Origin: Homalodisca vitripennis
Taxonomy: Eukaryota > Arthropoda > Insecta > Hemiptera > Cicadellidae
Assembly: GCF_021130785.1 (NCBI RefSeq)
Contig: NC_060213.1
Location: forward strand, 116,142,501 to 116,206,500
Reading direction: 5' to 3'
DNA length: 64,000 nt
A model generated the notes under the pieces. That model ran no database searches. It worked only from the letters and a program-made list of their open reading frames with translations, and was not told where the DNA came from. The position numbers and the translations under genes were made by a program. Positions 8,883-39,213 of the stretch are shown here, in pieces (the stretch's first letter is position 1; the number at the start of each line of letters is the position of its first letter).

Positions 8883-10735
8883 TTTACTCTACATTTACTC
8901 TACAATACTGTTGTACTAGCAGAAGGTCGATACTGACCCCGTTGAATTATACAGGTTAATGTGGCAGTATACTAATACATATAGACCATATATACCCAGA
9001 ATACGGAGCAGACACATATTTACTCTAACATACTGTTGTACTAGCAGAAGGTCGATACTGACCCCGTTGAATTATACAGGTTAATGTGGCAGTATACTAA
9101 TACATATAGACCATATATACCCAGAATACGGAGCAGACACATATTTACTCTAACATACTGTTGTACTAGCAGAAGGTCGATACTGACCCCGTTGAATTAT
9201 ACAGGTTAATGTGGCAGTATACTAATACATATAGACCATATATACCCAGAATACGGAGCAGACACATATTTACTCTACAATACTGTTGTACTAGCAGAAG
9301 GTCGAAACTGACCCCGTTGAATTATACAGGTTAATGTGGCAGTATACTAATACATATAGACCATATATACCCAGAATACGGAGCAGACATACATTTACTC
9401 TACAATACTGTTGTACTAGCAGAAGGTCGATACTGACCCCGTTGAATTATACAGGTTAATATGGCAGTATACTAATACATATAGACCATATATACCCAGA
9501 ATACAGAGCAGACACACAGTTACTCTACAATACTGTTGTACTAGCAGAAGGTCGATACTGACCCCGTTGAATTATACAGGTTAATGTGGCAGTATACTAA
9601 TACATATAGACCATATATACCCAGAATACGGAGCAGACACATATTTACTCTAACATACTGTTGTACTAGCAGAAGGTCGATACTGACCCCGTTGAATTAT
9701 ACAGGTTAATGTGGCAGTATACTAATACATATAGACCATATATACCCAGAATACGGAGCAGACACATATTTACTCTAACATACTGTTGTACTAGCAGAAG
9801 GTCGATACTGACCCCGTTGAATTATACAGGTTAATGTGGCAGTATAGTAATACATATAGACCATATATACCCAGAATACGGAGCAGACATACATTTACTC
9901 TACAATACTGTTGTACTAGCAGAAGGTCGATACTGACCCCGTTGAATTATACAGGTTAATGTGGCAGTATACTAATACATATAGACCATATATACCCAGA
10001 ATACGGAGCAGACATACATTTACTCTACAATACTGTTGTACTAGCAGAAGGTCGATACTGACCCCGTTGAATTATACAGGTTAATATGGCAGTATACTAA
10101 TACATATAGACCATATATACCCAGAATACAGAGCAGACACACAGTTACTCTACAATACTGTTGTACTAGCAGAAGGTCGATACTGACCCCGTTGAATTAT
10201 ACAGGTTAATGTGGCAGTATACTAATACATATAGACCATATATACCCAGAATACGGAGCAGACACATATTTACTCTAACATACTGTTGTACTAGCAGAAG
10301 GTCGATACTGACCCCGTTGAATTATACAGGTTAATGTGGCAGTATACTAATACATATAGACCATATATACCCAGAATACGGAGCAGACACATATTTACTC
10401 TAACATACTGTTGTACTAGCAGAAGGTCGATACTGACCCCGTTGAATTATACAGGTTAATGTGGCAGTATAGTAATACATATAGACCATATATACCCAGA
10501 ATACGGAGCAGACATACATTTACTCTACAATACTGTTGTACTAGCAGAAGGTCGATACTGACCCCGTTGAATTATACAGGTTAATGTGGCAGTATACTAA
10601 TACATATAGACCATATATACCCAGAATACGGAGCAGACACATATTTCCTCTAACATACTGTTGTACTAGCAGAATGTCAATACTGACCCCGTTGACTTAT
10701 TCATGTTAATAGTATTATATTAGTACATATTATAA
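8883..10735. repeat. 125-bp satellite array with 625-bp higher-order repeat
   Basis: About 14-15 head-to-tail monomers of exactly 125 bp; the marker ATACGGAGCAGAC recurs at 9001, 9126, 9251, 9376 and so on to 10626. Variant monomers recur every five units. The CAGAGCAGACACACAG variant lies at 9501 and 10126, TTAATATGGC at 9456 and 10081, and AGTATAGTAA at 9841 and 10466, each pair 625 bp apart. The monomer order is therefore a 5-unit higher-order repeat. The last monomer decays after about 10660. Each monomer holds the small dyad GGTC-N6-GACC. There is no open frame through the array and no spacer diversity, so it is not CRISPR. Confidence 0.96.
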
Positions 10736-15629: not shown

Positions 15630-17515
15630 ACAAATTAATTATATTTTTGAGTTTGATATATTTTATACAGTTTCTATTTTGAGGATATATGCACGACCCG
15701 ACGTAAAATAACGATTGAATAGTGTAAACAATGGCACTTTATTGGATTTCGGTGAGCATTATTTAATGTATTTACTTTAATTTTTAGGCGTAACGATAAT
15801 GTTAACTCAAAAATCGCAAAACAATTAAATCTTTGAGAAAGTGAATACAATCATAACATTTTAACATGTAACATATGTAGCCTAATTTGCACAATGAAGT
15901 CAGTTATAATCTTTTGCATTCAATTTCAGGGAACCATATAAAACTCTCAGCAAATCCGCACGGTACTTGATTCTAGTTGTTTTATTGTCTATAACAATAA
16001 AACACAATGGTCAAAAGTTACATGCACTGCCCTAATTGTTAGAGAATGTCCTCGAGTTTTGCATACAGTTCTATCACATCCTGCTACACAACATATGGTG
16101 TGGCGTACTCCTACCCTGTAATTAACTAATCCACTAAATATGTAACCCAGTGACTAAATTTCAATATTTTCGAGGTCATAAAACAATTTAACGAAATTAT
16201 TTTCTCGTGGCTGTAAAACCCATAAAAATGACTGGAAAATATTTTGAATAAAGCATCTGAATCAATTGTAAGAAATAAAATGTTCTAGTTAAAATTTATT
16301 TCAGTATTACTATGGATACTTGCACTTTCAAAATGTTTTTAATATGGAGAACATTTGGCTTAGAGATATTTTGAAAATTGTGCATTATCAAGTAGTTTGT
16401 ACTGGAGAGACTGGATTATATTTCGAAGAGGGAAGACGAGATAGAATATATAATTATTAGAATGGAAAGTAATAATTAAAATGCATATTTTTATTGCTTT
16501 GAAATATTTTTATTTTTATTAAAACTTTTTTAATTTTTTTATTGTTGCATAAATAACCTTATTATCCTGAGCTATATATAAAAAGACAACTATGTTATAT
16601 ATCTAATCTTACTTTTTCTATAGTACAATACTATTCGTATACTACATGGTTGGTATATACATTTATATAAATTTAAAATTAATTTTGCTTAAGTTGAGGA
16701 TGTCATAAGAAAAATATCATAGATTGCTGTTTCTGTCTCAACACAATGTAAGTTGAGTGGTGGCACATCGCATAGCGGCCGAATTATGTAAATCGCGTAG
16801 TTTGTAAATTTTGGAAGATTGGAAGATTCTTAGATGGATTCATAGAAAATTCTTATGCACATGAATTGATAAAATGTTCATATTTTTATGATGTAAATAT
16901 GTTTCGTACACTAAACTGTTAAAATACATTATTGTAATAACCAAATTGTACATATTACACTAAGTATTAATGAATGCATATTTGGGTTAAGATGTATATT
17001 ATGATGTCAATTAATTCACAAGATTTGTAGTAAAAACATGTATATCACAAAAATTGTTACATATTTTAGTGAGTGTTTGTGGGCTAACACTTGTACTGTA
17101 CTGCTGAGCCAGTGCCTGTTTCATTATATAAGTAAGTTTATAAATGTTACTGTATGCTGATATAATTTTATAATACTAAGGCCAAGGAAAGACGAACAAC
17201 ATACACGAAACAATGAATTTGTTACTACGATATAGATTATTATTGAATTTGATTCGCCGTTACATGGGATAAACGAAAATTTAACATATATTTTCGTTAC
17301 TGCAAGTTTTTTTTAATTAATAGGTAATAGAGTTTATAGGTGTAAAAATATAAACTTGTTTTCTACAAACAAAATGCTAATTGTGTGAGAAATGTATAAA
17401 CTTCATTTCTGTGAAACTTTGCGGTATTTATAATTTATCTTTAAAATGTACATAGCGTATTAGGAGATAAAAATAAATATAACTTATCTAAAGTCCAACA
17501 CACAAATACATCTTT
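15630..17515. repeat. Duplicated block, copy 1 (uninterrupted)
   Basis: This block aligns by eye, in the same orientation, with 19930-21120 for its left part and with 32090-32800 for its right part. Shared stretches include AAATCCGCACGGTACTTGA, TGTAACCCAGTGACTAAATT and CATTATATAAGTAA. Divergence is considerable, with many indels, so the duplication is old. About 150 bp (about 16680-16830) has no counterpart in the second copy. No gene is recognised in either copy. The block may be a transposon of unknown class or a plain segmental duplication. Confidence 0.75.
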
Positions 17516-17662: not shown

Positions 17663-17665
<3 letters not shown>

Positions 17666-19929: not shown

Positions 19930-21120
19930 TACTAAAACAATTTTATTTACTTATCTGTCCATATAATACATGAGAACGAACTGACCTGCAAACATGGCAT
20001 TTTGTATGAGGCTGTATTTCTTGAAATTTTGTTTGTCGTATGGCACTTTATTGTATTTCATTGAGCGTTATTTAATATGTTTCAATTAATCTTATGGGCA
20101 ACAGTGTTGATAACACGAAAATAGCAGAACAAATTCAGATGTGAGAAACTGAGTACAATGAAGTGAAATATTTATCATCTACAACGTTTGCATTCAGTTT
20201 AAGCGAACCATGTAACTCGAAACGTAGTATAGAGTGTTCCAAACTTAGTATATAACCAAGGCTATTCCATAAATGCCTGTATTTCGTTAGTGATAAGGCT
20301 GGTTTTAATGAAACATAACCTACGTAAATAATCGTTACAGTCAAATTCAATTTATGACTTACAAAATAAGTAAACAACGAAACAAATATTCATAAAATTC
20401 TCTGTAAATCCGCACGGTACTTGAGTCTAGTTGTGTTATTATTTAAAACAATAGAACACAATGGCAGTAGGGTCAAAAGTGATATGCACTGCCCTAATTG
20501 GTAGAGAATGAACATGAGTTTTGCACACAATTCTAGCTCATTCTGTTACACAACACATGGTGTGGCTCCTAACTTGTAATTAAAATATCCACTAAATATG
20601 TAACCCAGTGACTAAATTTAAGTACATTTTCAAAGGGCATACATTAATTTAAAGAAATTACTTTCTCGTGCCATAAAACCCATGAAAAAGACTAGAACAT
20701 ATTTGGAACAAAGCATCTGAGCCAGTAATAATAAATAAAAATTTCTAATGGAAATTTATTTCAGCATTACTATGGGTATTGGTTCTTTACAAACTTTTTA
20801 TAATTGCAAAGATTTAGCTTAGACATTTGAAAAGTTTGTATTTCCAAGTAATGTATACTAGAGAGGCTTTGAGTTATTTTTCAAAGGTGGAAGACCAATT
20901 AGCATAAATAATTATAATAATATAATGTAATAATTAAAATATATTCGTCTTAATTATCTTATTTTAATGTTTGTTTTAATGTTTAAATTTTTGTGTTTTT
21001 GATCTCTTTTATACTGAGCTATATACAGTAAGATAAATATGTTATATATTAAATCTTAATTTCTATTTAGTACGATACAATTCGTATTCTATCGTTACTA
21101 TATGGTTGATATATAGTATA
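19930..21120. repeat. Duplicated block, copy 2, left part
   Basis: This is the same-orientation counterpart of about 15630-16680, recognisable from GGCACTTTATTG near 20041 through AAATCCGCACGGTACTTGA at about 20405 to the CGTATTCTA region at about 21080. It stops at a TA tract at 21121. The homologous sequence resumes only at about 32090, after an 11-kb insertion. Confidence 0.72.
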
Positions 21121-21122
21121 TA

Positions 21123-21190
<68 letters not shown>
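21121..21190. repeat. (TA)n tract at left edge of the 11-kb insertion
   Basis: About 35 TA units. The Penelope-like element begins directly after it. A second TA tract (32046-32082) marks the other edge of the insertion. Confidence 0.95.
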
Positions 21191-21194
<4 letters not shown>

Positions 21195-21985
21195 CTTCAA
21201 TAAGAATTCTTCAAATGTATTAAACAGTTTCTATATTTCGGCTTAAGCCGTCTTCAGGAAATAATAAAAAATATAAATAGGGCTATAAGAACAGAATAAA
21301 CATAAAACATCATCACAGAAAATGGAAAATAAGAATGAATTATGTACAATTTTAAACATATGATTTACTTTTGTAAATTCACTTTGTTGACTAAGTCACC
21401 TCAAATTTAATCCACTTGGAAATTTTGATTTAGTGACGAGTTGATGAGCTTGTTCCATGGTTCTCAGACTGTGTGTACTTAAATTTTCTGATATTTTTCT
21501 AATTGGTTTCACTGAAAATGTTTCTTCAAAATTTAAATTATGTATTAAGCCATGTGCTACTATAGGTTGCTCTGTCTTTTTATTTTTATATGCATACCTG
21601 TGCGCAGTCATCCTTGTTCTAAGAGAATTTATCGTTCAACCAATATGATCATTAGGGCATAAATTGCACTGAATTTGGTAAACAATATTTTTTGATTCAC
21701 ATGTTAAGTCTTCAAATATACTGTATGATTTTTGTGTGGAACTACTTGTAAATGTTTCTGAAGTAGAGCACATGTTGCAGACTGAACACCTGGGTTTATT
21801 GCAAGGATGTGACCCAAGAGTCATGTTTTCTTGGTCTTTGTGCTTAGGTAATTTTTATGGACTAAAATATCTTTCAAAACTGGTGGTTTTCTAAATCTTA
21901 TTTTTGGAATGTATTTAAAAATGTTTTTAGTTGAAGCAGAGCTGTCCAATAAAACGTATGCTACTCGAAGTATATTGTTAATTTT
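21191..21985 (-). pseudogene. Penelope-like element, C-terminal GIY-YIG endonuclease region (broken)
   Basis: Penelope-like elements encode a reverse transcriptase fused to a C-terminal GIY-YIG endonuclease. On the minus strand, going right to left, there is a linker ending in IPKIRFRKPPVLKD (about 21850-21910). After a frameshift near 21822 come a Cys-rich stretch with CxxxxCxVC-like spacing and the motif IVYQIQCNLCP (about 21650-21690). An in-frame stop (TGA) at about 21636 precedes the conserved downstream helix region (21396-21611). The reverse transcriptase is absent because the copy is cut at about 21985 by R2-like element A. A hammerhead-like core lies at 21236-21257 in the terminal non-coding part. 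The element abuts a TA tract, a common landing site for this class. At least one frameshift, one stop and the truncation make it dead. Confidence 0.82.
21236..21257 (-). other. Hammerhead-like core motif in Penelope-like terminus
   Basis: The minus strand reads CTGAAGA, one base, then a hairpin GGC-TTAA-GCC, then GAAA. This matches the CUGANGA / stem II / GAAA arrangement of hammerhead ribozymes except for one extra base before the stem. Hammerheads are established in Penelope-like element terminal repeats, so the location supports the reading. Stems I and III and the cleavage site were not resolved. Confidence 0.5.
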
Positions 21986-21987
21986 AT

Positions 21988-23170
21988 CCCGGATCCTGGG
22001 GCAGGTGACCCTGACCGAGAGGCAGCGAGGGTTTTGGCCCGGCAACGTCTGCCACATGAACTGCCTGCTCCTGGACCAGGCCGTGAGGCTGGGGAAGAGA
22101 AGTCGTCTCGTCGCCGTGCTACTAGACGTGTCAAAGGCCTTCGACACTGTGTCACACGTGGCAATACAGCGCGTGTTGCGCAGACTTGGTGTGTCGCAGT
22201 GTCTGTCTTCCATCGTGGGCCTGATGTACTCCGGCGGGACTACCACCTTGGGGGCTCTCGGGGTGACCATTCTCCTGAGGAGGGGGGTCAAACAAGGAGA
22301 CCCCCTATCACCCCTTCTCTTCAACCTGGCCATCGTCCCCTTACGGGTTCACCGGGCGGGAGATGCTGGCTGCTACTGCATATGCGGACGACGTCACCCT
22401 GCTTGCCGACTCCATGGATGGGATGCGGGAGATGCTCGTCATCACCTCCGAGTACCTCGCATCCGTGGGCCTGGAGCTGACTGCTGCCAAGTCTGGGGAG
22501 TTCTGCGTGGAGCGCGCCGGCGATGCCTGGGTGTCTGTACCGCTGCGGCTCGATATCCGGGGCCAGCCGGTGAGGACCTTTGGCGTGTCAGAGTCCTTCC
22601 AGTACCTGGGAATCACGTTTACCATCCAGCACCGTCTCAGGAATCGGCAGCACTTGGACTCACTCCTGGAGGCGGCGGGCAGGGTGCGCCGTCTGTCGCT
22701 GAAGCCCCAGCAGAAGGTGCAGCTGCTGATGCAGTTCATTGTGCCCACCTTCGCCCACCGGTTCACCATCGACCTCCCTTCGTCCGTCGACATGGACCGC
22801 GTCGACACGGCGCTGCGCAAGGAGGTCAAGGGCATCCTTCATCTCCTGTACTGCACAACGGAAGGCGTGCTGTACTCCCGTAAGCGGGACGGGGGACTGG
22901 GTTTTCCTCGCCTCGGGGTACAGCTGAAGATGTGTGCGCTGCGGGTATGTCTCGGCATGCTGTCCACGGGGGATGCCCTGAATGCCGAGATGTCGCAGGA
23001 GGCCGATTCGGAGAACCTGATTGACACCTTGGCGAGGCAGCTTGGGGTTCAGCAGCATGTCACCGCCCGTGGGGTCGCCCTCAGAAAGTGGCAACTAAAG
23101 AAGGAGGCCCATCAAGCAACAACGTCTTTGGGAACCACTGGCTTCTCAACCAATCCGCCCTGTGACCTAG
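21988..23170 (+). pseudogene. R2-like A: reverse transcriptase and thumb region
   Basis: The first frame (about 21988-22340) shows the RT signatures QRGF, LDVSKAFDTVSH and GVKQGDPLSPLLFNL. A frameshift at about 22340-22362 moves the catalytic box AYADDVTLLA (about 22380-22410) into another frame. That frame continues through YLGITF and LKPQQKVQLL (thumb region) to about 23110, where alignment to element B shows a further frame change and small deletion. The invariant YADD aspartates are present, so the catalytic motifs survive although the frame does not. Everything upstream of the fingers, including any zinc finger and Myb domains, is missing. Assignment as R2-like rests on these motifs and on the endonuclease downstream. 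Confidence 0.85.
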
Positions 23171-23717
23171 CCAATTGATAGACGCGCTAAAATTGCGGAC
23201 TAATACCTACGGGACCAGGGTTGCAATTAGACGTACGGCAAGAGATACCGTCGCTGAGTGCCGACGCTGTCCTACATGCCCGGAGACCATGGGACATGTC
23301 CTGGGACTCTGCATCTCCGGTAGACGACTTCGTGTGGAGCGCCATGACTTCGTCGTGAAGACCATTCCGGCACATTGTGAGGAGCGGGGGCTAACCGTCG
23401 CGAGGGAGCAGGAGCTCCGTACCAGCGAAGGGGAACGATTGAGGCCGAACCTGATCATCCTGAACTCCCTCAGCGAGGCAGCCCTCACAAAGGTCACCAA
23501 ATACACACCTGTGGTCGACGCGGCGAATACTATGCTACGGACGACGAAGGGAGAAGTTATCCCCGTCGTCCTGGGGGCTCGTGGCGCTCTACCGAAGTCG
23601 ACTATTTCAAACTGGAGGAAGCTCGGCATCAGCGACCGGAAGACTATCCTGGATCTAACGCTGGCGGTGCTGCGGATGTCGCTGGATGTGGCGCGTGGCC
23701 ACCTCGACTACGGGTGA
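23135..23717 (+). pseudogene. R2-like A: restriction-like endonuclease domain, catalytic site lost
   Basis: The frame contains a stop (TGA at about 23150) just before LIDALKLRTNTYGTR and then runs open to 23715. It has the gag-knuckle-like CCHC motif CRRCPTCPETMGHVLGLC (CX2CX8HX4C), typical of the endonuclease end of R2-clade proteins. The K/RPD catalytic box reads RPN, and the downstream DVTVP box present in element B is deleted. Two acidic active-site residues are therefore missing. The C-terminal GEVIPVVLGARGALPK block is strongly shared with element B. Identity to B across the domain looks like roughly half to two thirds, so A and B are different families rather than copies of one another. 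Confidence 0.85.
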
Positions 23718-24267
23718 CCAGCGTAGTCCCTTCTAAACATGACCTGGTCTGACCTGGAACAGAAGACAGAAAGATTAGATTAAACACAAAGGGAAAAATA
23801 AAAACATAACTTAAAAACTTAGATGTAGGAAGTATAGAATAGGAAAAATCACCAAGTTTTGAGCCTTTGGTTCTGTCCTGGGCGAAGGAAAGAATGTAGT
23901 ACAAGAGAAGAAGAAGAAAGAGGAGAAAGAAGAGAAAAAACAAGAAACAGAAAAGAAGAAAGATAGAAAAGCATGTAAACAATAAACCATTCAAATGGGA
24001 ATAGTCAAAAACTTTGTAGTCGAAGGGCTGCAAATTCATCCGGCCCAAATAGGGGAGACTCAGGGTCCACGTACCGGCAACCAAGCAACGTCATGGATCC
24101 GGTCCTCGGACTCATCCGTGTTAGGGAATTGCTAGTCCCTTGGAGGATGCCATGGCGGCTAATGAGTCACGCATATCCCCGGACATTCTCACCCCTACCA
24201 TCCTTGTTGGCGGCACAAACATGCCGTCAACACTCTCAATCAGTCACGCGTCCGAGCAACCCTGGCA

Positions 24268-24560
24268 GAGATCGGGTATCCAATACCGGTGGATGCAAGG
24301 GTCGGACTGCTAGCGAGATGGCTGGCCCCTCCCGTGACATGGCTCGCGGGGGAAGCCTGCCTGCCCGAGAGGGCTCCCTGGCGGGGAGGAACGTCCCTCC
24401 CCAATGGGGAGGTTAGGTGAGATCGGGTAACCAACCCCGGTGGACGTTGGGGTTGGCGTAGGCACACTCCATCCCGCCGTGACGTTCGGGGGAGGCTTGC
24501 CTGACTGAGAGGCCTCCCTGGCGGGAAGGTTTGAGCTCGGATGGGGGATCCCAGGCCGCA
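24268..24560 (+). repeat. ~150-bp direct repeats in the 5' region of element B
   Basis: GAGATCGGGTA plus a following CCGGTGGA recur at about 24268 and 24419 (151 bp apart), and GGCTCCCTGGCGGG / GGCCTCCCTGGCGGG at about 24370 and 24510. Two degenerate copies of a promoter-proximal unit are plausible, since tandem 5' units occur in several non-LTR families. No regulatory site was identified. Confidence 0.65.
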
Positions 24561-24958
24561 AGGGGACCGAGTCCGGGTAACCGGAGGAGGTCAGTTCGGT
24601 CCCGTGGAACTTCCCTCTAACATCGAGGGTCGGAACGCCACTCCGAGGAGTGAAGCGGCCTACAAGTACATCTATGGGCCGACCTTCCGACCATCAGGGA
24701 GGAGACTTTCCATGGGTCACCTTGAGGCCTTCGGGCAAACGGGTGTACCGCTCCACCCTAGGAGGCAGCCCCTCCGGAGCGGTGTAGGGTGTGGGAGCTA
24801 ACAACTCTCACACCTGCACTGAACCTCCAAAGTTTTCAACAATGAAGAAAAGCCTTGGACTCCGGTGGGGACGCGCTCTCCCCCCCCCCCCCGGTTTACA
24901 ACGCCAGGAGCGCTTAGCACAACGGACAAAGCCACAACTTAGGGCTGCTGGCGTGCAG

Positions 24959-25270
24959 ATGGCAACGTACGACTGGCCATGGAAGGCAAAAAAATGTCTC
25001 CTGTGCCAGTCGTGGTTCACGCTTGCGAGGGACCTGAAGGACCACCATGAAGATCATCACGGCGATCACCTGCTCAGGTTTCGCTGTACGGGGTGCCGGA
25101 CGCTATTCAAAACATACCGGGGAGCGTCCATGCCTCTCGCAAAGTGCAAGGGGTCTCCCGTAGTCGTAGGCGTTCTTTGCTCCGACTGCGGGAGGGTGTT
25201 CCCCAACAAGGAGCGCCCACCACCCTGAGCAGGTGAACGTCGAGCGCCTGAGGGAAGAAGACAGGCGTGC
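24959..25270 (+). pseudogene. R2-like B: N-terminal zinc-finger region
   Basis: An open frame from about 24791 includes a candidate start at 24959. It encodes a C2H2 finger, CLLCQSWFTLARDLKDHH (CX2C, 12 residues, His pair), then a second Cys pair (CTGC) and a third Cys pair, CSDCGRVFPNKER. In related R2-type proteins a His pair follows this third CxxC; here it is lost and the frame stops at 25228. The frame shift is evident because HPEQVNVERLREEDRR (about 25220-25265) reads in another frame. Three fingers would fit the multi-finger R2 subgroup. These fingers bind target DNA in the family. Confidence 0.75.
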
Positions 25271-25300
25271 TGCGAGTGCATCTGCACTATTCCACCGACA

Positions 25301-25489
25301 GAGCCGCGGAGCTCCGGATGGACTGAGGACGAGGACCGGACTTTCATCCGCCGCTACCTGGAGTTCAAGACTACCGGGAGGGCCATGGGGTACTCCAACT
25401 ACGTGGCCCTGGAGCTTCCCCGGAAGACTGACCGCCTCGTGACACTTCGGGGCTACCGCAACCCATACGGCATCTTGGATGCACCGTAG
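25301..25489 (+). pseudogene. R2-like B: Myb-like DNA-binding domain
   Basis: A frame of about 62 codons ending at TAG 25487-25489 begins SSGWTEDEDRTFIRRYLEF, the start of a Myb/SANT helix-turn-helix (Trp followed by an acidic stretch). It continues with further helices and a Tyr-rich end. In R2 proteins a Myb domain follows the zinc fingers and contacts the target site. It is out of frame with both the zinc-finger piece upstream and the RT piece downstream. The small size and the flanking fit make the call fairly secure. Confidence 0.7.
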
Positions 25490-25594
25490 CCGCCTGCCCC
25501 CTATCCACCATCACAGGGGCTGGCCTCGACCTCCAAGAGTGGCGGGCCGGGGGGACGGATCCGGGCTGAGGGCCCCGGCTGAACTTCCCGATCG

Positions 25595-26307
25595 ATGGGT
25601 AATAAGGGCCGGCAACGGCACTTACTGAGAAAGCGACCGCCTTTGGACTCTCCACCGGCGTCGCCTCCCGGGACGGCTCCCGACCCCGGTCTCCGGCTTG
25701 GGCATTGGCAGAAGGTCCTCAATGAGATATTGGGGACCAAGCCGGTGTGTCATGTCGGGGCCCGGTTCAAGGAACTAGCCGCCCAGGAAGGCGACATCCA
25801 GGTTCGGCTAGACGAACTGGTGGAGGAGCTTCAGGCAGTCATGGTTGCAACGCAACCAGTGACGGCCAGGGTGGGCGGCCGGCGAACCCCACAACCGGGC
25901 CTTCTGAGAGAACCCGCCGTAAAGTGACAAGGTATGCCCGACAAGAGTTATACAATAAAAACCCATCGTGCTTGGCAGATTTGGTCCTCAAGAATGAACT
26001 TGGGGACCTGCTGGCCGATGGACCTCCAGTAATGCCACCAAAGCGGGAAACCCTTGAACTTTACCGGGGGATGTGGGGAGTGCCGGTCGCCTGCATCCTG
26101 AACCAACAGGGCGTTGACCTCCAGGAGGACGAGCTTGTTGAGTCCTTCACCGGGTACGAGGTGAGGAGGCGCGTCGGGAGACTCAAGGCCGGGGGTGTCC
26201 CCGGCCTGGATGGAGTAGCGAAGAGTGCCATTACCGGTTATGCTGGTGCGGCCGGGACCCTCTCCGTTCTCTTCAACATCTGTCTCTTCCGGGGCGCCTT
26301 CTCCTGA
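25595..26307 (+). pseudogene. R2-like B: linker and pre-RT segment, truncated before RT core
   Basis: The first piece (25595 to about 25900) shows LGHWQKVLNEIL and then shifts frame near 25900. It continues as RYARQELYNKNPSCLADLVL, then LELYRGMWG, and RRVGRLKAGGVPGLDGVAK, the conserved N-terminal extension and start of the fingers in R2-type reverse transcriptases. It ends LSVLFNICLFRGAFS then stop (26305-26307). In intact relatives the catalytic motifs follow here. Instead the sequence jumps to a thumb-region stretch (ITYLGLDFSL, about 26398-26430). The whole RT core, equivalent to about 22000-22560 in element A, is deleted. Confidence 0.8.
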
Positions 26308-26399
26308 AGCGGTCGGGCAGATCGGCGTGGGTCACCCTGGACACTATTTTAACAGTCCAGGGCGCGCTGATTAAGAACATTACGCTGTCCGACCAAATC

Positions 26400-27508
26400 A
26401 CTTACCTCGGGTTGGATTTTTCGCTCAAGCACGGGTTCTCCAACCTCGTCGACTCGGCGAGCAGGGTACGACGCTTGGCCCTAAAACCCCATCAGAAGGT
26501 TCACCACTGATGTCATCCTCTACACGAGGAAGAGGGATGGAGGGTCTCGGCGTCCCTCGCCTCGTGCAGCAGGTCAAGATCTGCGCCCTCAGGGCCGGCC
26601 TGCGGTTGGTGGAGTCGGAGGACTCCCTGCTACAAGAACTGAGCAGGGAGGCCGGATGGGCGGGTCGCTTGGAGGCGCTGGCAACGCAGTTAGGCCTACA
26701 GTACCCTGCGAAATCCAGGGACATCGACAGTCGCAAGATACGGCTGAAGAAAGAGGCGAGGCTAGCATGGCAGGCTGTAGTCTCACAGGGCGTCGGTGTA
26801 CTGGACTTTAAAGTCAACCCAGTAGCCAACTATTGGCTACTGCACCAGGCTGCACTTAAGCCTGGCCAGTTCATCGACGCCCTAAAATTCCGTACCAACA
26901 CCTACGGAACGAGGTTGGCCATCAACCGTGGGGCTCGGACTGGCGTGACTGATTGTCGGCGGTGTCACTCTAAACAGAAGACGTTAGGACACGTCATCGG
27001 GGAGTGCACCGCCGGGAAGAGGGCCCGCATAAAGCGCCACAACTGGGTGGTTGCCCGCGTCGAAGACCGTATTAGGGAGCGGGGAGCCATTGTCGGTCGA
27101 GAGCAGTCGTTCCGAACACCATCTGGGGACCTGCGCAAGCTCGACATCGTCACTAAGATCGGCGATGTCGCGCTTGTCGTGGATGTAACTGTCCCGTTTG
27201 AGAACGGCTGCTCTTTTGCTGAGGCCGCGATGGCGAAGACGGTCAAGTACGTGGACATCCTCCCGGTCGTCCAACAAAAACTCCATGCTACTCGAGGAGA
27301 AGTTATCCCGGTAGTCCTGGGGGCGCGCGGTGCCCTCCCAAGGGCGACAGTCACTGCCCTGAAGAGCCTGGGGATGGCCAACAGAAAAACCCTCTTAGAC
27401 TTGAGCCTTGCCATGCTACGGACCTCCATAGACATAGGTCGTGCCCACCTTGATTTCAAGGAACGGGACCGCCGGCCGAGGCTAGCTCAGCCGCCTAACC
27501 CACCATGA
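26400..27508 (+). CDS. R2-like B: thumb remnant and restriction-like endonuclease domain
   Basis: After a short thumb remnant (LALKPHQKV, near 26480-26505) another deletion removes sequence present in element A. A frame from about 26510 to 27508 is then open for 332 codons. It contains a CCHC motif, CRRCHSKQKTLGHVIGEC (CX2CX8HX4C, about 26955-27010). The catalytic stretch then reads RKLD (family consensus KPD, with Pro replaced by Leu), and VVDVTVPFE (about 27178-27200) keeps the second Asp. The shared C-terminal block GEVIPVVLGARGALPR follows. This endonuclease nicks target DNA to prime reverse transcription. It is the best-preserved coding unit in the window, but it lacks its RT and a proper start, so I treat it as part of a dead element. 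Confidence 0.8.
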
Positions 27509-27588
27509 GGAGGGACGGAAGGAGTAGGCCGGGGTTAAGTTTGAAATTAGGGGGGTAAAGATTAGAGAAAAACAGAAAAAGCAACCCG

Positions 27589-27644
27589 TGTCGCCGGTGA
27601 AACCACTACTTTCATCGTTTCTTAACTTACTCGGTTGGGCGGAG
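27589..27644 (+). rRNA. 28S rRNA gene fragment
   Basis: TCGCCGGTGAAACCACTAC, then TTTCATCGTTTCTTAACTTA and CTCGGTTGGGCGGAG match a conserved insect 28S stretch that lies a few hundred bases downstream of the classical R2 and R1 sites. Relative to the usual sequence it lacks a few bases (for example AAACC for AAATACC). Only about 56 bp is present. It is in plus orientation, opposite to the 18S copy nearby, and directly adjoins the 3' end of R2-like element B. Recognition is from memory of conserved 28S sequence and needs an alignment. Confidence 0.75.
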
Positions 27645-27660
27645 GTCTATGCTATTTTTA

Positions 27661-28198
27661 TTTATTTATCGGCCCGAAATCTCGTGACTGCAGCCGAGCG
27701 CGCCCGTTGCAACCGTGGGACACCGACACGGCCGGGCGCGCGCGTCTGAACACAACTCGTGTGTAAAACTTGTAGTTTGCATAAGTTGAACTAGCCCTGA
27801 AGCTATCACTCACTACCGCTCTTTACAGAGCCAATGTGTCGGCCCGCCATCTCGTGACTGCGACCGTGAAGACACAACTCGTTTGTAATGTGCATCAGTT
27901 CGGCCCATGGGCCTGTTGAACTGTGCCAGCAGGGTAGTGGTTGCCAAGCACTCTCTGAAGCAGTGCCTCATCACTGCCGCTCTTTACAGAGCAAATACGT
28001 CGGCCCGCCATCTCGTGACTGCGACCGCGCAAACACAACTCGTGTGTAAAGAAGATCGGCTACGCCGGATCTTTTATTTTCGGGGCAGTGCTCGCTCAGA
28101 CACTCCCCTGTGTAGTGGTTGCCAAGCACTCCTATTCTGCGCGGCCTCTCTATTGCTCGCGCTGTGGTGTTTGTGCACCTCAGTGCCACATAACACGT
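27661..28198 (-). other. ITS1-like spacer with ~165-bp subrepeats
   Basis: This lies directly downstream of the 18S 3' end in gene orientation, where ITS1 belongs. TCGGCCC-CATCTCGTGACTGC recurs at about 27671, 27839 and 28000, and CACAACTCGTGTGTAAA and CTCTTTACAGAGC-type blocks recur with it, giving three degenerate units of roughly 165 bp. No 5.8S sequence was recognised to the left, so the unit is cut before it. Confidence 0.65.
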
Positions 28199-28225
28199 TA
28201 ATGATACTTCCGCATGTTAACGTAT

Positions 28226-28256
<31 letters not shown>

Positions 28257-28345
28257 AATGATCAAGTTTGGTCATCTTTCCGGCAACATCGGCGACAGCA
28301 CGAGGCGATCGCCGCGCACCAGTCCGAAGACCTCACTAAATCATT

Positions 28346-28391
<46 letters not shown>

Positions 28392-28825
28392 ATCAACGCG
28401 AGCTAATGACTCGCGCTTACTGGGAATTCCTCGTTCATGGGGAACAATTGCAAGCCCCAATCCCTAGCATGAAGGAGGTTCAACGGGTTACCCGGGCCTT
28501 TCGGCCAGGGAAGACACGCTGATCCCTTTAGTGTAGTGCGCGTGCGGCCATCACAGAACTGTTATTGCTCAGTCTCGTGCGGCTTGAAGCCGCCTGTCCC
28601 TCTAAGAAGAATTTAATTCGCCGGTAGCACTATTGTGGATACCGGAGACGCCTAGTAAGCAGGCTAGAGTCTCGTTCGTTATCGGAATTAACCAGACAAA
28701 TCGCTCCACCAACTAAGAACGGCCTTGCACCACCACCCACCGAATCAAGAAAGAGCTATCAATCTGTCAATCCTTCCGGTGTCCGGGCCTGGTGAGGTTT
28801 CCCGTGTTGAGTCAAATTAAGCCGC

Positions 28826-28874
<49 letters not shown>

Positions 28875-30310
28875 TTTGCAACCATACTTTCCCCGGAACT
28901 TAAAAGCTTTGGTTTCCCGGAAGCTGCCCGCCGAGTCATCGGAGGAACTTCGGCGGATCGCTGGCTGGCATCGTGTATGGTTAAAACTAGGGCGATATCT
29001 GATCGCCTTCGAACCTCTAACTTTCGTTCTTGATTAACGAGGACATACTTGGCAAATTCTTTCGCTTAGGTACGTCTTGTGACGATCCAAGAATTTCACC
29101 TCTAACGTCGCAATACGAATGACCCCACCTGTCCCTATTAATCATTACTTCGGATTCTTAAAACCAACAAAATAGAACCGAAGTCCTATTCCATTATTCC
29201 ATGCACACAGTATTCAGGCAGAAATCAGCCTGCTTTAAGCACTCTAATATGTTCAAAGTAAACGTGTCGGCCCACCTCGACACTCAGTCAAGAGCACCGC
29301 GGCGGGATTGAATCGGTGGCCGTAACGCTCGGGATGCTTCAGGCGGACCCTACACAACACCGGAAGCCCGGACCGCCACCGGCAGGACGTCCCACAGGAC
29401 ATGTCAGTTAACACCGCGAGCGATGTACCGACATCGTAAGACACAGATCCAACTACGAGCTTTTTAACCGCAACAACTTTAATATACGCTATTGGAGCTG
29501 GAAATACGCTATCGGCTGCTGGCACCAGACTTTCCCTCCAATTGGTACTCGTTAAAGGATTTAAAGTGTACTCATTCCGATTACGGAGACTCGGACAAGT
29601 CCCGTATCGTTATTTTTTTTCACTACCTCCCCGTGCCGAGAGTGGGTAATTTGCGCGCCTGCTGCCTTCCTTGGATGTGGTAGCCGTTTCTCAGGCTCCC
29701 CTCTCCGGAATCGAACCCTGATTCCCCGTTACCCGTTACAACGATGGTAGGCGCAGAATCTACCATTGACAGTTGATAAGTCAGACATTTGAAAGATGCG
29801 TCGCCGGTTCGAGGACCGTACGATCAGCTGAAAGTTATTCAGAGTCACCAAAAAGTGCGGGGCTGGTGCCCCGATTGGTTTTGATATGATAAAAACGTCC
29901 CTTCCAAATTGTTTTTTTTTATTTTTATAAAATAACCTCGGAATAATGTGTATTGCAATGTTTAAAGAATAAAAACCTCTTGGCGATTTCTAAAAAAAAA
30001 AATTATTTACCGAGATACGGGCCTCCAAAGAAACTTTGGAATTTTTGTGTTTGGAGTTTTAAAATAAATTATTACCGATGAAATGACAGATGTGGGGTGT
30101 GTGCGGGCATCTTTTGAGCATATTCGGGATTCTGTTTGCATGTATTAGCTCTAGAATTACCACAGTTATCCAAGTAATAGATTGTACGATCCAAGGAACC
30201 ATAACTGATTTAATGAGCCTTTTGCGGTTTCGCCTTAATGTGGCTTGTACTGAGACTTGCATGGCTTAATCTTTGAGACAAGCATATGAATACTGGCAGG
30301 ATCAACCAGG
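28199..30310 (-). rRNA. 18S rRNA pseudogene
   Basis: The minus strand begins near 30310 with the conserved CCTGGTTGATCCTGCCAGTA and ends near 28199 with a degenerate form of the conserved 3' end (ATGCGGAAGTATCATTA). Most of the length is readily recognised as insect-type 18S. Several changes fall at positions that functional rRNA does not tolerate. The universally conserved 530-loop sequence (CAGCCGCGGTAATTCC) is altered at 29500-29522. About 18 nt of the conserved segment before ATCACAGACC is missing at about 28549. The 3' terminal helix region carries several substitutions. A ~220-bp insert sits in the 5' domain (29906-30127). I conclude it is a non-functional copy outside the main rDNA array, or a decayed unit. 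Confidence 0.92.
29906..30127 (-). repeat. ~222-bp insert in 18S, shared with upstream spacer
   Basis: This AT-rich segment interrupts the 18S sequence between CGTCCCTTCC and GATTCTGTTTGCATG, in the V2 region. It matches 31184-31406, in the same orientation in the upstream spacer, almost base for base, including CAAAATAACCTCGGAATAAT-type blocks and GACAGATGTGGGGTGTGTGC. It has no coding content. Either a spacer segment was copied into the gene or both are copies of a small rDNA-associated repeat. Confidence 0.88.
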
Positions 30311-32040
30311 GAGCAGCAGATATACTCGATATCTCGTCTGTGCGGCATTAACACAGATGCTGTACTCGCACGGGCGGAGCGAGCGCACGGACAAGCCGCG
30401 GCACGACCGCCCGAGTTGTGAGAGAGTGGAAGCCGCTTGGTCCGGGTCAGCCGCGCTAACGCGCCGCGCCGTAGGAAGAACGCCACGAAGTTTAAATCAC
30501 GCCGAAACGTGGCCCCGTTACGGACCTAAGCGCCACGCCGCGCGCGCCACTGCCCGGGCGACTCGGGATGATGATTGTGTCGGTACTCGGTGCGAACACC
30601 GGTCCGAAAATCATTTTATCGAGCTTCATTTAAACTCACTTCAGGGTCTCCGGTCTGCGACCGGTAGCCCTATTTCTTGGCTAGAACACGCAGTTCGTTT
30701 TGCTTACGCCCGGTGAGGTGAAGTGTTTACCATAAGAGAGTCGGCACGGCCCGAGAAAGTCGCTGGCGGGACCGTGAGGCCGCCGCAGTCGAGCTACTCG
30801 AGCCGCCCGGGAGTTTGCGCCGCGTGTGAGCTGCGTACCGGCGGTCACGGAGGACCGTCGGCGGGCTCGCGGCAATGCTGTGGCTCGAGGACAAGCCCCG
30901 AGATCGGTAGCGGCCGCCAGAAGCGGCCGCCCGCCGCCAGAATGATTATCGGGTCGGCTACTTGAAATCCCGGTAAAAACCGGCAACAAGCCAAAAATTC
31001 GATAAAAATGGCTAAAAACCATTTTAAGTATGTTGTACAGGCCCCTACTGTACTTTGGGAGGGTTTTGGCTACTTTTTATTTTTCACTCTTAGGACACAA
31101 CCACCTCCCTATAAGAGAACTGGAATTTCCATGAGACGTTCCTGAGAAACGACTCGCAAAAACCCCAGGTGCATATCGGTTGAAATTGTTTTTTTTTTAA
31201 TTTTTACAAAATAACCTCGGAATAATGTGTATTGCAAAGTTTAAAGAATAAAAACCTCTTGGCGATTTCTAAAAAAAAAATTATTTACCGAGATACGGTC
31301 CTCCAAAGAAATTTTGGAATTTTTGTGTTTGGAGTTTGTAAAATAAATTATTACCGATGAAATGACAGATGTGGGGTGTGTGCGGGCATCTTTTGAGCAT
31401 ATTCGGCCTCTTGGAGTTTGGCCTTAAAAAAATTATTTACCGAGATACGGCCGGTCAAAGCATAATCGGGAAAAACCGTTCATATCGGTTTGCTTCGGAG
31501 GGAAAAAAAGGTCTAAATACAGGTTTTAGAAGAAAGTTGTCGAATGATAAAATGAAATATACCGTGTTACCTACATTTAACAGTAGGAGTTTGATTTTTA
31601 AGATTTATATTTAAAAAGTTACGGGACTTAGAAAATTTTCGATTTTGACACCAAAGGGGGGACCCTTCTCAAGAGTGCATATCGGTTTGGTAAAACGTGT
31701 TTTTTATCGAAAACGGCACGATAAAAGTTTATGAAACTTTGCAGTCGACTAGAATAGAATCTAGCGCGTGTTTTAAAAGTGTTTGGGAGAAAATCTATTG
31801 ACGGATTTTTTGTACAGGCGTCGGAACGCAACTCGACACGGTCAAATACCGGCCGGCCAAGGTTCATATCGGTTTGCAAAAGTGCGGAAAATCCGAGAAT
31901 GGCCCACGTCTCGGGCTAAAGGACAATGTTCCCGGCCTAAAATGTCTCTTGGTGATTCTTCGACAAAGTCCAAATTATCGAGTTACGGGACTTGTAAAAA
32001 ATTGTAATACATGTAAATAAATCTAAATAAAAATAAATAA
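30311..32040 (-). other. External transcribed / intergenic spacer-like region of rDNA
   Basis: This lies immediately upstream of the 18S 5' end in gene orientation. The proximal part (30311-30960) is GC-rich and unique. The distal part holds subrepeats: CATATCGGTT recurs at about 31172, 31482, 31679 and 31867, and ATTATTTACCGAGATACGG at about 31281 and 31433. The second copy of the 18S insert sits at 31184-31406. No promoter was identified. It ends in TA-rich DNA at about 32040. Confidence 0.65.
31184..31406 (-). repeat. Spacer copy of the 18S insert
   Basis: Nearly identical to 29906-30127 over about 222 bp, with a handful of substitutions (for example AAAGTTT for AATGTTT and TACGGTCC for TACGGGCC). 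It is embedded between CATATCGGTT-type spacer subrepeats, which suggests the spacer is the original location. Confidence 0.88.
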
Positions 32041-32041
32041 A

Positions 32042-32045
<4 letters not shown>

Positions 32046-32082
<37 letters not shown>
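32046..32082. repeat. (TA)n tract at right edge of the 11-kb insertion
   Basis: About 18 TA units. Homology to the first duplicate block resumes just to its right. Confidence 0.95.
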
Positions 32083-32084
<2 letters not shown>

Positions 32085-32089
32085 ATTAT

Positions 32090-32800
32090 ATGGATATATA
32101 TGAGATTATTGTATTGAAAATTCTTGTGTACGTTAGTGAATTGATAAAAGTTTTGTATTTATATTATGTAAATCTATGTTGCTACACAAAACGGTCAAAA
32201 GACATTATTGTAATGATCAAAATGTATTTATGACACTACATTTTAATAAATACACGTTTGTATTCAAAATAAGATGTCAATAAACTCACAAGATATCTAG
32301 GAAAAAACGTATTATATAACACAAAATGTATTACATATTTTCATTGAGTTTTTGTCGGCCTACACTTATACTGTACTGGTGGGCCAGGCCTCTTTCATTA
32401 TATAAGTAAATCTACAAAATATTGTTGTAGACTGTGGTAATTTTTTAATATTAAGGACAAAAAAGACCATCATAAAAAATCAAATTATGTATCTTTCACT
32501 AGAATATAGATTATTGATTGATTTGATTCATCATTGCATGAGGATATACAAAAATTTAATATTGTGTTTTATCGCTTCTGGTGACTTATAAATTCATAAC
32601 AGCGTTTAATCGTGTTATATTATAATTTTGGCTCAACAAATACAGTTTTATTTGGTGAGAATAAAATTGTCTAAAATTCTGGTCAGAGAAACATCGGAAT
32701 ATTGTGTTATGCATCTTTGAAATAGACATAGCATATATAGATACGGAATCTTATAAATAAAATACAGTTCATCCATCGACCAACGCTCACACACATACAT
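32090..32800. repeat. Duplicated block, copy 2, right part
   Basis: Same-orientation counterpart of about 16830-17515. Matching stretches include AAAATTCTTGTG/AAAATTCTTATG, the CACTTATACTGTACTGGTG region at about 32363, and CATTATATAAGTAAATCTA at about 32396. This continues the copy whose left part ends at 21120. Confidence 0.72.
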
Positions 32801-35705: not shown

Positions 35706-37566
35706 ATCTAATATACTATACAGCCGCATGTGAAACCTGACTGACTGATATATGTATACAAATTCTAACCTACTTCTCTAGAAGTGCTTAGAAACTTGAA
35801 ATTTGGCACACGGAGGTACCTTTTACCGTGAAACCATCAGGAAAAGTCTGAAAACCGGGAATTTTTAATTTTAAACCCCTCAAAAAAATTCGCAAAAAAA
35901 ACGCGCATTTTTTTACCCTTGCAGGCCTTTTTTGTAAGCCCGATAGCGGGCGAACCATTGGAGCTAGCTCGGATCTGATGAAAAATCGTTAGTCAGGAAA
36001 TGAAGTGAACTACAAAAAAGGTCAAGTGACTTTTTGCTCTATCTCCATGGTTTAAGCGACAAAACGCTCGAATATTTGACATTCCAGAGATTTTTTTCGC
36101 CAAAAATAATGTTTTGGGCCCGATAGCGGCCGAACCGTTTGTCGTAGCTCAAATCTGATTGACCCATCAAATTATCAAATTCCGCGATCTACAGAAAAGG
36201 TTAGTGACTTTTTTGCCATATCTCCATTAGTTTGGCCGAAAAAAGGTGATTATGTGCAATTTTTTTTGTAATTTTCACGTGAAACTTTGTTTTTAGGGTC
36301 GATAGCGGCGAAACAATAGTCGGAGGTCAAAATAAAACAAAGGTTAGATTTAGGAAATAATATGATCTACAAAAAAGGTTAACTGGACTTTTTACTATAT
36401 CTCCATTAGTTTGACCGCAAAACGCGATTAAGTGAAAATATTTTGAAATTTTCGCCTACAAATTTACATTCCGGGCTTGATAGTGGCTCTAAACAGTTGG
36501 CCGTAGCTCAAAACACAAATTTTCATTCCGATTTAGGAAAATTACGTGATCTACAAAAAAAGTTCAGTAACATTTTGCCCTATCCTCAACGGTTTGGCCG
36601 CATAACGCGTTTTAAAGTTTTGATTTTTTTGAGTTTTACTGAGATTTTGTTTTCTGGGCTCTATTTCAGACAAAATCTTAGTTCTAGGCCCAGATTAAAA
36701 ATTTCATTTTTTAATACAAAATAATGCGATCTACATACCAAAAGGTCAAGTGACCTTTTTACTCTATATTCCATGATTTTAGCCGTAAAACGTGATTATA
36801 TTGAAAATTTCACTTACAAACTTACTTTTCGTGCTCGATAGTGGCCGAACCGTTGGTCCCCTAGCTTAAATGCAAAACTTTTTGTAAGTAGCTATTTCAT
36901 AGGATATACAAAAAAAAGGCCCAGCAGCTTTCTATCGTTTTATCTTTCCGTAAGCCTGATAAATGCTCTAAAATGGCTAATTCTTTGTCGTCACTTTTTA
37001 GGTGTTTTAAATTTTGCAACTATAATTAGTGTGATTCATGCTGGTCTCCATATTGACCTTGTATTACTACGTTAACGAGTGACTAAAACCCCCTTCCACA
37101 TCGGGAGTTGGCTGAGCGTTAGTGAAGTTTCAAGAGTAGATAGGGACAGAGTGCTTTTTTATTTTATGAAATATTAGTTCATTGTCAAAACTCTGGCGTG
37201 AAATGATAATTTCCGAAGTAATTTAAACCCTCTGATCAACGTTTTTATTTTGATAAGAATTACTGTACACATGTTCTCGTTAGCACAGATGCACATTTCC
37301 CAGAAAAGTACCACGCGTTCCTATAAGCCCCGATAACATTAACCCCCACTCCCGGGAATTTCCTGTTTTGATGAACTCCTGATTAAATTAAACCCCCTGA
37401 TCAACTTATTTATTTACACATTTTTTTATTTACAGTTTTTAATTTATTTACATTAAATCTGTTTACACAACAGCTGACCAGTGCAGACTTTTCTTCCGAG
37501 CTCAGTCCTGGCTAAACCAAAACTCGCAAAATCTGACGACGGAATCGAGCACAAAATTAAATTTCC
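35706..37566 (+). mobile_element. Repeat-built element, copy 1 (Helitron-like header)
   Basis: After a TA tract (35681-35705) the header reads TCTAATATACTATACAGCCGCATG, with CTGACTGACTGA and a TTGAAATTTGGCACAC block. Such headers are common in non-autonomous arthropod Helitrons. About six degenerate ~180-bp units follow (marker GATCTACAAAAAAGG at about 36005, 36189, 36362, 36548, 36727 and 36901), each with a GGGCTCGATAGCGGCCGAAC-type block. A tail of C-rich ATTTCCTG motifs (about 37330-37400) leads to a unique stretch before copy 2. There is no coding sequence. The Helitron assignment is inference, because a clean CTRR end was not found. Confidence 0.5.
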
Positions 37567-39213
37567 GCATAATATATACAGCCGCATATGTAACTGAGAC
37601 TGACTGACTGACTGACTGATAGGGTATACAAATTCTAACCCACTTCTAGAAGTGCTGGAAAACACGAAATTTCGTACACACGTAGGTGGATTCTTCAAAC
37701 CACCAGGAAAAGTCTGAAAACGGATTTTTTTACTTTTGAAACCCCTCAAAAAAAATTCCCGAACGGACCTCTGTTTTTTGCCCTTGCAGGCTTCCCTTTG
37801 AAGCCCGATAGCGGGCGAACCGTTGGAGCTAGCTTCAATCTGACGAAAAATTCATGGTCAGGAATAATGAAGTGAACTACAAAAAAGGTCTTGTGACCTT
37901 TTGCTCTATCTCAAATTGGTTTGGCCGCAAAACGCGATTTACATTAAAACATTTTGAAATTTTCGCCTAAAAATTTACCTTTCGGGCTCGATAGCGGGCT
38001 AAACGGTTGGTCGTAGCTCAAAACAAAATTTTCAATGGTATTTTTTAAATAGCGTGATCTACAAAAAAAGGTCATGTAACTTTTTGCCCTACCCTCAATG
38101 GTTTGGCCGCATAACGCGTTTTAAAGTATTGATTTTCTAAGTTTTACGCGAGATTTTGTTTTCTGGGTTTTATTGCCGCAAAACTCCTAATTGTAGCACA
38201 GAATAAAAATTTGATTTTATTACTAATTAACGCGATCTACAAAAAAGGACCAGTGACATTTTCCTCTATCTCCAATGGTTCGGCTAATAAATGTAAAATA
38301 TTTCGTAATTTTTATTTAAGAACTTTGTTTCTAGAGTCATTAGCGGCCTAACAGTTAGTTCTAGTTTAAATATAAAAACTTTTATGACTAAAAATTAATA
38401 GGGTCTTCAAAAAAGGTTATGTAACTTTTTGTTGTATGTCTTATAATAAGCCCGAAAAATGCGATTAATAGCAAAATATTTGTCGTGAATTGGCAATTTT
38501 TGGAGGTTTTTAAATTTTTATGTAACTAATATTTAGTAATAATTCATTCCAGATGCAGATTGCACTTGCTTTGCTAGGTTCACGAGTGAATACAACCCCA
38601 TTTAAACAAATTGGCGAGAGTTAGCTAAGCGTCAATAGTAGATAGGGACAGAGTGAATTTGTATTATGTTCACAGACCCAGACACCCTCTAAATAAGTCC
38701 AAGTGTGGCATTAAACCCCCCCCCGGGGATTTCCTGGTTATGACAGATTAACCTTCTAAATAAAATAAAACCCATGATGTGTTACCCCCCCCGGTAAAAA
38801 ATTAACCCCTCCCTGGAGACTTCCTGGCATGACCTCATGTCCGAATTTTACCAATCACCAAATATCTTAACCCCCCCCCTGGGAAGTTCCTGGTATGACC
38901 AGATAAACCCCCCCGGTGTCTTATCCCCCGGTAACGTTAACCCCCCCCCTGGGAATTTCCTGGCATGACCTCATGTCCTAATTTTACCAATCACCAAATC
39001 TCTTAAATCCCTCCCTGGGAATTTCCTGGTATGACCAGATAACCCCCTGATGTCTTAAACCCCCGGTAACGTTAAACCCCCCAGGGAACTTCCAGGCATG
39101 ACCTCATGTCCGAATTTTATAATCACCAAATCCCTCTTATCCCCGAATTTAAGACACTTTACTTTGGGGGGCCTGGGGGCGTAGCCCCCAGCGAGCCGAA
39201 GGCGAGTTATATA
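37567..39213 (+). mobile_element. Repeat-built element, copy 2
   Basis: Begins TACAGCCGCATATG with five CTGA repeats, closely matching copy 1, 1.85 kb upstream. It holds about four ~180-bp units (about 37868, 38052, 38229 and 38403). Its tail has C-rich repeats of about 130 bp (GGCATGACCTCATGTCC at about 38832, 38962 and 39093). It ends with a perfect hairpin, CTGGGGGC-GTA-GCCCCCAG, followed by CGAGCCGAAGGCGAG at 39213 and then TA-rich DNA. A hairpin just before the 3' end is a Helitron trait, but the terminal CTRR is lacking. Confidence 0.5.

Follow-up and report, generated by a model that had tools for sequence, protein, structure and literature searches.

R2 is a non-LTR retrotransposon specific to the 28S gene, and in Drosophila its cutting causes double-strand breaks in ribosomal DNA (rDNA), as stated in the partial text of one report (PMC10266012). 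In Lepidoptera, rDNA spreads as a transcription unit, for which satellites are held responsible in the available part of a second report (PMC10257491). Furthermore, R2-like elements that are not specific to a site have been found in Blattella, where the accessible portion of the source describes them as randomly located (PMC7650587), and some R2 families have changed or lost their target (PMC5035012, likewise a partial text).

In this study, a 64-kb stretch of Homalodisca vitripennis DNA (C7:116142501-116206500 of a 2.3-Gb assembly; hereafter the window) was analyzed, in which a block of about 11 kb, consisting of decayed mobile elements and a broken, partly inverted ribosomal gene, splits one copy (copy B) of a local duplication. 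The reverse transcriptase (RT) and endonuclease parts within the block match R2, and at another locus (E1) the 28S next to a relative of the second element starts about 16 nt beyond the R2 site. However, both copies in the window are decayed and lie outside the array, and they represent two families placed head to tail without a long 28S stretch between them. The dispersed rDNA of Lepidoptera likewise lies outside the ancestral locus and is linked to other repeats; as far as the partial report describes it, it is a transcription unit there, whereas the piece in the window is short, rearranged and dead (PMC10257491). With the Blattella elements, in the portion of the source cited, the window shares R2-related sequence away from the array, but its second R2 element differs in sitting with rDNA pieces (PMC7650587). 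R2 families with a changed or lost target resemble the window, on the evidence of the partial text, in having 28S-like sequence in an unusual position after the R2 3' UTR, although in the window a deletion explains this position, since E1 holds the intervening 28S (PMC5035012). Finally, the block contains a Penelope-like fragment which, like such elements in general, is 5'-truncated with a constant outer end and, unlike them, directly abuts an R2 element at its inner end.

The block is a well-dated case of ordinary genomic debris. It allows the history of a dispersed rDNA fragment to be put in relative order: the duplication came first and was followed by the fragment's departure from the array, which arrival cannot precede. 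Its joins are resolved to a few bases and are thus testable in sister species. In addition, the recurrence of R2-R2-rDNA composites opens the question of whether rDNA units that carry R2 escape from the array at a higher rate than those free of it. The features are collected in Table 1.

Table 1. Features of the duplication and of the inserted block, in window positions.
Feature	Positions	Strand	Basis	Remarks
Copy A, uninterrupted partner	15731..17460	+	BLASTN of window against itself, joined alignment, assembly search	Loose similarity reaches about 17578
Copy B, left part	20040..21124	+	BLASTN of window against itself, joined alignment, assembly search	
Left TA tract	21126..21190	.	Repeat and run scan	
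Penelope-like element, abundant family	21191..21987	-	Assembly search; protein features by eye	5'-truncated; outer (3') end at 21191
R2 element 1	21991..24000	+	Pfam, structure-solved R2 proteins	5'-truncated, frameshifted; RT and endonuclease parts, 3' UTR; right edge approximate
R2 element 2	24000..27580	+		Zinc finger, RT start, endonuclease; RT core missing; frameshifted; 5' end approximate (23999-24026)
28S rDNA scrap, 76 nt	27581..27656	+	Right edge set by ITS1 comparison	About 200 nt downstream of R2 site
ITS1	27657..28198	-	Match to array	Inverted relative to 28S scrap
18S rRNA pseudogene	28199..30312	-	Rfam and array comparison	
222-bp insert in 18S	29906..30127	-	BLAST, array comparison	Closest to the block's own spacer, 31183-31406
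5' ETS and intergenic spacer	30313..32006	-	Match to array	Order as in rDNA array
A-rich filler	32007..32045	.	Comparison of spacer edge	
Right TA tract	32046..32082	.	Repeat and run scan	
Copy B, right part	32113..32736	+	BLASTN of window against itself, joined alignment, assembly search	Loose similarity reaches about 32890

Comparison of the window with itself by BLASTN paired 15731-15851 with 20040-20159 (74%), 15938-16669 with 20392-21124 (76%, E 3e-146) and 16842-17460 with 32113-32736 (71%, E 6e-73). A preliminary description of this DNA had proposed a split duplicate, in the same orientation, of a block at 15.63-17.5 kb and had asked beforehand for copy A to be aligned with the joined halves of copy B; this alignment scored 1353, against a mean of 198 and a maximum of 322 for 60 unrelated pairs of the same length from this window, and the proposal is confirmed. 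The ends that it gave (21120 and about 32090) need adjustment, since the copy-B homology ends at 21124 and clearly restarts at 32113. Its defined empty site is not borne out in that form: 172 bases of copy A (16670-16841) have no counterpart in copy B at the break, and the site is therefore not clean.

When copy A was searched against the assembly (40 of 52 candidates scored), the 55 matches were copy A itself, copy B in three pieces and 51 short ones that are restricted to 15729-15914 and 16057-16130, with none covering the breakpoint. Neither these scored candidates nor 31 fetched loci (239,126 bases with some overlap, among them the 20 kb on either side of the window) contained a third long copy. 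Because only A and B are long among the scored matches, the duplication is local and, within the searched material, consists of two long copies; these lie near each other in the same orientation and are not an abundant repeat. A transposon family was rejected as an explanation of the two copies on the same count. The 15729-15914 stretch of copy A matches a dispersed short repeat. Beyond the TA tract 3' of copy A, CAGGGTGTATATTATG... was read by eye as an element end at 17663, and the stretch from there to about 18175 is, also by eye, a possible small DNA transposon.

The inserted matter extends from the Penelope-like end at 21191 to about 32006, where the rDNA spacer ends; 39 A-rich bases follow, and then the second of the two TA tracts that had already been noted on either side. 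TA tracts are common in the window, as 17 perfect TA/AT runs of at least 20 bases occur in its 64 kb, and, apart from TA itself, direct repeats flanking the block do not exceed 8 bp. A query of 31800-32300 gave 54 matches (39 of 65 candidates scored), 50 of which stop at 32003 or earlier, while three are confined to the A-rich/TA part (one being the TA tract of the window, the other two at C7:66.77 Mb); among these matches, the right edge past 32003 is crossed by the window alone. At C7:66774593-66774825, rDNA spacer adjoins a match to the A-rich/TA right edge, on the same or the opposite strand, and an association of spacer and TA may thus recur elsewhere.

The Penelope-like fragment belongs to a mobile family with a constant end and 1255 candidates in the assembly, of which 40 were scored. 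All 39 scored copies other than the fragment itself start at 21191-21192, 36 of the 39 end at 21987 and none crosses 21987 into R2, whereas in the window only 3 nt separate this end from the R2 start at 21991. Within the scored matches, the Penelope/R2 join and the right edge of the block are both local to the window. With regard to the RT and GIY-YIG endonuclease of such elements, a raw three-frame translation read by eye shows the C-terminal part alone, and the fragment includes what we take to be a hammerhead-like motif. Elsewhere, three Penelope-like copies at a spacing of 3174 bp form a tandem array (C1731:102545-109705).

The RT and endonuclease parts of the R2 elements, the endonuclease being of the R2 type, match R2 proteins with solved structures. 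Neither element is a single intact open frame: the coding sequence is spread over several frames, and element 2 is without an RT core. Pfam gave two RVT_1 matches in element 1, one of them just below the family cut-off, and none in the four pieces of element 2. Over 200 residues of the endonuclease part, the two elements are 47% identical and therefore belong to different R2 families. The piece at 25726-26307 is identical to an H. vitripennis protein (P0011) at 165 of 166 aligned residues, and two further, weaker protein hits also belong to this species.

The canonical 28S flank of the R2 site, as defined from four fetched sequences (L002-L005), is absent from the window. These four, from contigs of bacterial bins, are R2-like elements that were fetched by their canonical 28S 3' flank. 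The relative of element 2 in E1 has 28S behind it that begins about 16 nt beyond the R2 site and runs through the stretch retained in the window, and a deletion therefore explains the arrangement in the window. E1 has no clean R2/28S junction, its match to element 2 stopping at window position 27140 and the 3' end of the element also being cut. From these comparisons, element 2 was probably a canonical-site R2, with the junction sequence lost in both the window and E1. A novel R2 target in 28S was rejected, as the window 28S lies about 200 nt past the site and E1 holds the intervening 28S; position 21991 was rejected as the end of a mobile unit, as element 1 extends upstream of it in E1. Between the two elements, TAGTCAAAAACTTTG at 23999-24013 is, by eye, faintly like the canonical 28S flank TAGCCAAATGCCTCG. 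A literature search on tandem R2 found no matching paper, and an R2 protein scan of viral contigs gave nothing useful.

Six loci were fetched as candidate composites. Five of them (E1, E2, E3, E5 and E6) are copies of one longer repeat with common flanks, and E4, on C24, is not. The order in this repeat is R2 element 1, element 2 and then rDNA that is scrambled differently from that in the window; its five copies (L025/L023, L026, L028, L022 and L024) are about 80-98% alike over pieces of at least 300 bp, and E1 and E2 lie within the first 0.5 Mb of C7. Next to the loss of the RT core, the window retains 48 bases (26262-26309) that are missing from all five copies. The losses in element 2 are thus not identical in the window and the repeat, and although the two may share one ancestor, a common origin is unproved. 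At C2:115452001-115470000 (L039, L019), a third R2 family, with an endonuclease part 49% identical to that of element 1 and 56% to that of element 2, lies head to tail with the 5' end of element 2, followed by rDNA. Head-to-tail R2 pairs therefore occur in three settings, namely the window, the E repeat and the C2 locus. Since the R2-R2 order is also found at five other loci, the R2 pair probably predates the arrival of the block.

Unlike in an array unit, the ITS1-18S stretch is on the strand opposite to that of the 28S scrap. The spacer and ITS1 of the block match the rDNA array contig C2411 in the normal order around 18S. In this contig, 18S, 5.8S and part of 28S were found by cmscan; its 28S contains a run of about 5 kb of N (within C2411:63001-83000; L015-L016), which makes R2 occupancy unreadable there. 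The block 18S covers the entire Rfam model, with mismatches at 27 of 716 highly conserved positions and 15 further positions absent, compared with 9 of 719 and 12 absent in a control 18S (L006); a direct count on the aligned rows gave 28 of 719 for the block. In addition, 16 gapped model positions fall within one conserved stretch, and there is a change in what we take to be the 530-loop region. With its conserved positions disrupted in this manner, the block 18S is a pseudogene. The control (NZ_CP050525.1) is a 1764-bp record that is filed as an Acinetobacter baumannii plasmid and is a eukaryote-like 18S, likely a contaminant.

A search of the assembly with 18S gave 76 matches (40 of 386 candidates scored), with 18S fragments spread over seven or more large contigs. 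Among these 76 matches, only the window itself crosses query positions 189/407, which mark the 222-bp insert. The insert is 96.4% identical to the spacer of the block by BLAST (98.2% over ungapped columns) and 71.5-84.6% identical to the spacers of five other loci (L008-L011 and L013). Being closest to the block's own spacer, it is most likely a local copy, and the copying perhaps came after arrival; the pair was accordingly given up as a bound on arrival. No 18S patterns were found in viral contigs, and Rfam searches of 27500-28220 and of L002-L005 gave nothing useful.

The age of the block was compared with that of the duplication. The block 18S differs from an array copy (L016) at 53 of 1887 sites (K 0.0286) and from five array-type copies (L009, L010, L011, L015 and L016) at 52-60 sites, the mutual differences of these five being 0-10 of about 1900 sites, with 48 gaps in L015 relative to L016. 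A sixth 18S (L014, on C7) was left out because it is itself diverged, with 106 differences from the window. The ETS/spacer of the block is 94.6% identical to that of the array over 961 columns, and copies A and B differ with K 0.235 over 1300 columns (0.207 and 0.270 for the two halves). If the array 18S is taken as constrained and both duplicates as drifting, the ratio of block age to duplication age is 0.24 (0.17-0.32, bootstrap over sites); from the ETS, with both sides drifting, it is 0.19 (0.13-0.27), and both ratios assume equal neutral rates in GC-rich rDNA and AT-rich flank. As departure from the array is an upper bound on arrival, arrival would postdate the duplication, barring a three- to fivefold difference in local rates. 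The order proposed in the preliminary description, with the block younger than the duplication, is thus supported by divergence as well as by topology, and all of the contents that it named (a Penelope-like piece, two R2-like elements, a 28S fragment, ITS1, an 18S pseudogene and spacer) are present. Its further claim that everything arrived after the duplication at this site stands for the youth of the block, but the R2 pair was probably assembled elsewhere beforehand and 29906-30127 is perhaps a later local copy.

It appears reasonably probable that a break at a TA tract took up rDNA debris along with a Penelope-like copy. A local two-copy duplication would have come first and, much later, a break at a TA tract inside copy B would have been healed by the insertion of foreign pieces: on the left a Penelope-like copy with its outer end against the TA tract, and on the right decayed rDNA made up of two head-to-tail R2 elements, the 28S scrap and an inverted ITS1-18S-ETS-spacer stretch. 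The block would afterwards have drifted as a pseudogene, with the 222-bp piece of spacer copied into its own 18S. We infer the TA-tract break, the capture by end joining and the entry of both pieces in one event, and, by analogy with the breaks described in Drosophila, R2 cutting may have supplied the broken rDNA. The right edge is A-rich and could be a retrotransposed tail instead of an end-joining scar. Stepwise nesting is the next candidate but rather unlikely; here the insertion of the Penelope-like element into the TA tract would have preceded (or followed) a separate arrival of the rDNA/R2 part, with deletions at the joins. The usual outer end of the family lies at the TA tract, resembling an ordinary Penelope-like insertion, and the 222-bp copy suggests that the block went on changing. 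However, rDNA inserted within a Penelope-like copy predicts a 5' remainder to the right of the rDNA, and no such remnant was noticed there, among the 39 A-rich bases or in the TA tract; furthermore, the truncation point of the Penelope-like copy is at most 3 nt from the R2 start.

Five other loci carry element 1, element 2 and rDNA in the same first order, and the spread of 18S fragments over at least seven large contigs would also be consistent with a block that moved in as a ready-made unit of a dispersed R2/rDNA repeat family. This is very improbable, because the five are copies of one longer repeat with common flanks and differently arranged rDNA, because element 1 runs upstream of 21991 in E1 and because the right edge and the Penelope/R2 join occur, among the scored matches, in the window only. 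An assembly artefact, with a collapsed rDNA contig placed into copy B, is equally hard to credit. Both TA tracts and rDNA trouble assemblies, as the N run in the array contig illustrates, but the window contains no N, its R2 parts are decayed, and its 18S stands apart from all five array-type copies, with an insert and the loss in a conserved stretch; protein P0011 also matches the R2 part, although it may stem from the same assembly and does not address the TA joins. Capture at a TA-tract break can also be framed more generally: head-to-tail stacking of different R2 families at a single 28S site would be recurrent (in the window, the E repeat and the C2 locus), and broken rDNA units loaded with R2 would be the preferred source of dispersed rDNA debris, in this case taken up with the Penelope-like copy in one repair event. 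In this general form it is improbable, having become less likely because E1 has no clean R2/28S junction.

Other repeats were observed in the window. About 14.5 copies of a 125-bp unit form a tandem array at 8893-10710 (97% matches), and internally repetitive elements together with a C-rich tandem array occupy 35737-39144. Within the latter interval, 24 nt at 38635-38658 resemble the 28S just past the R2 site (91.7%, E 0.006), probably by chance.
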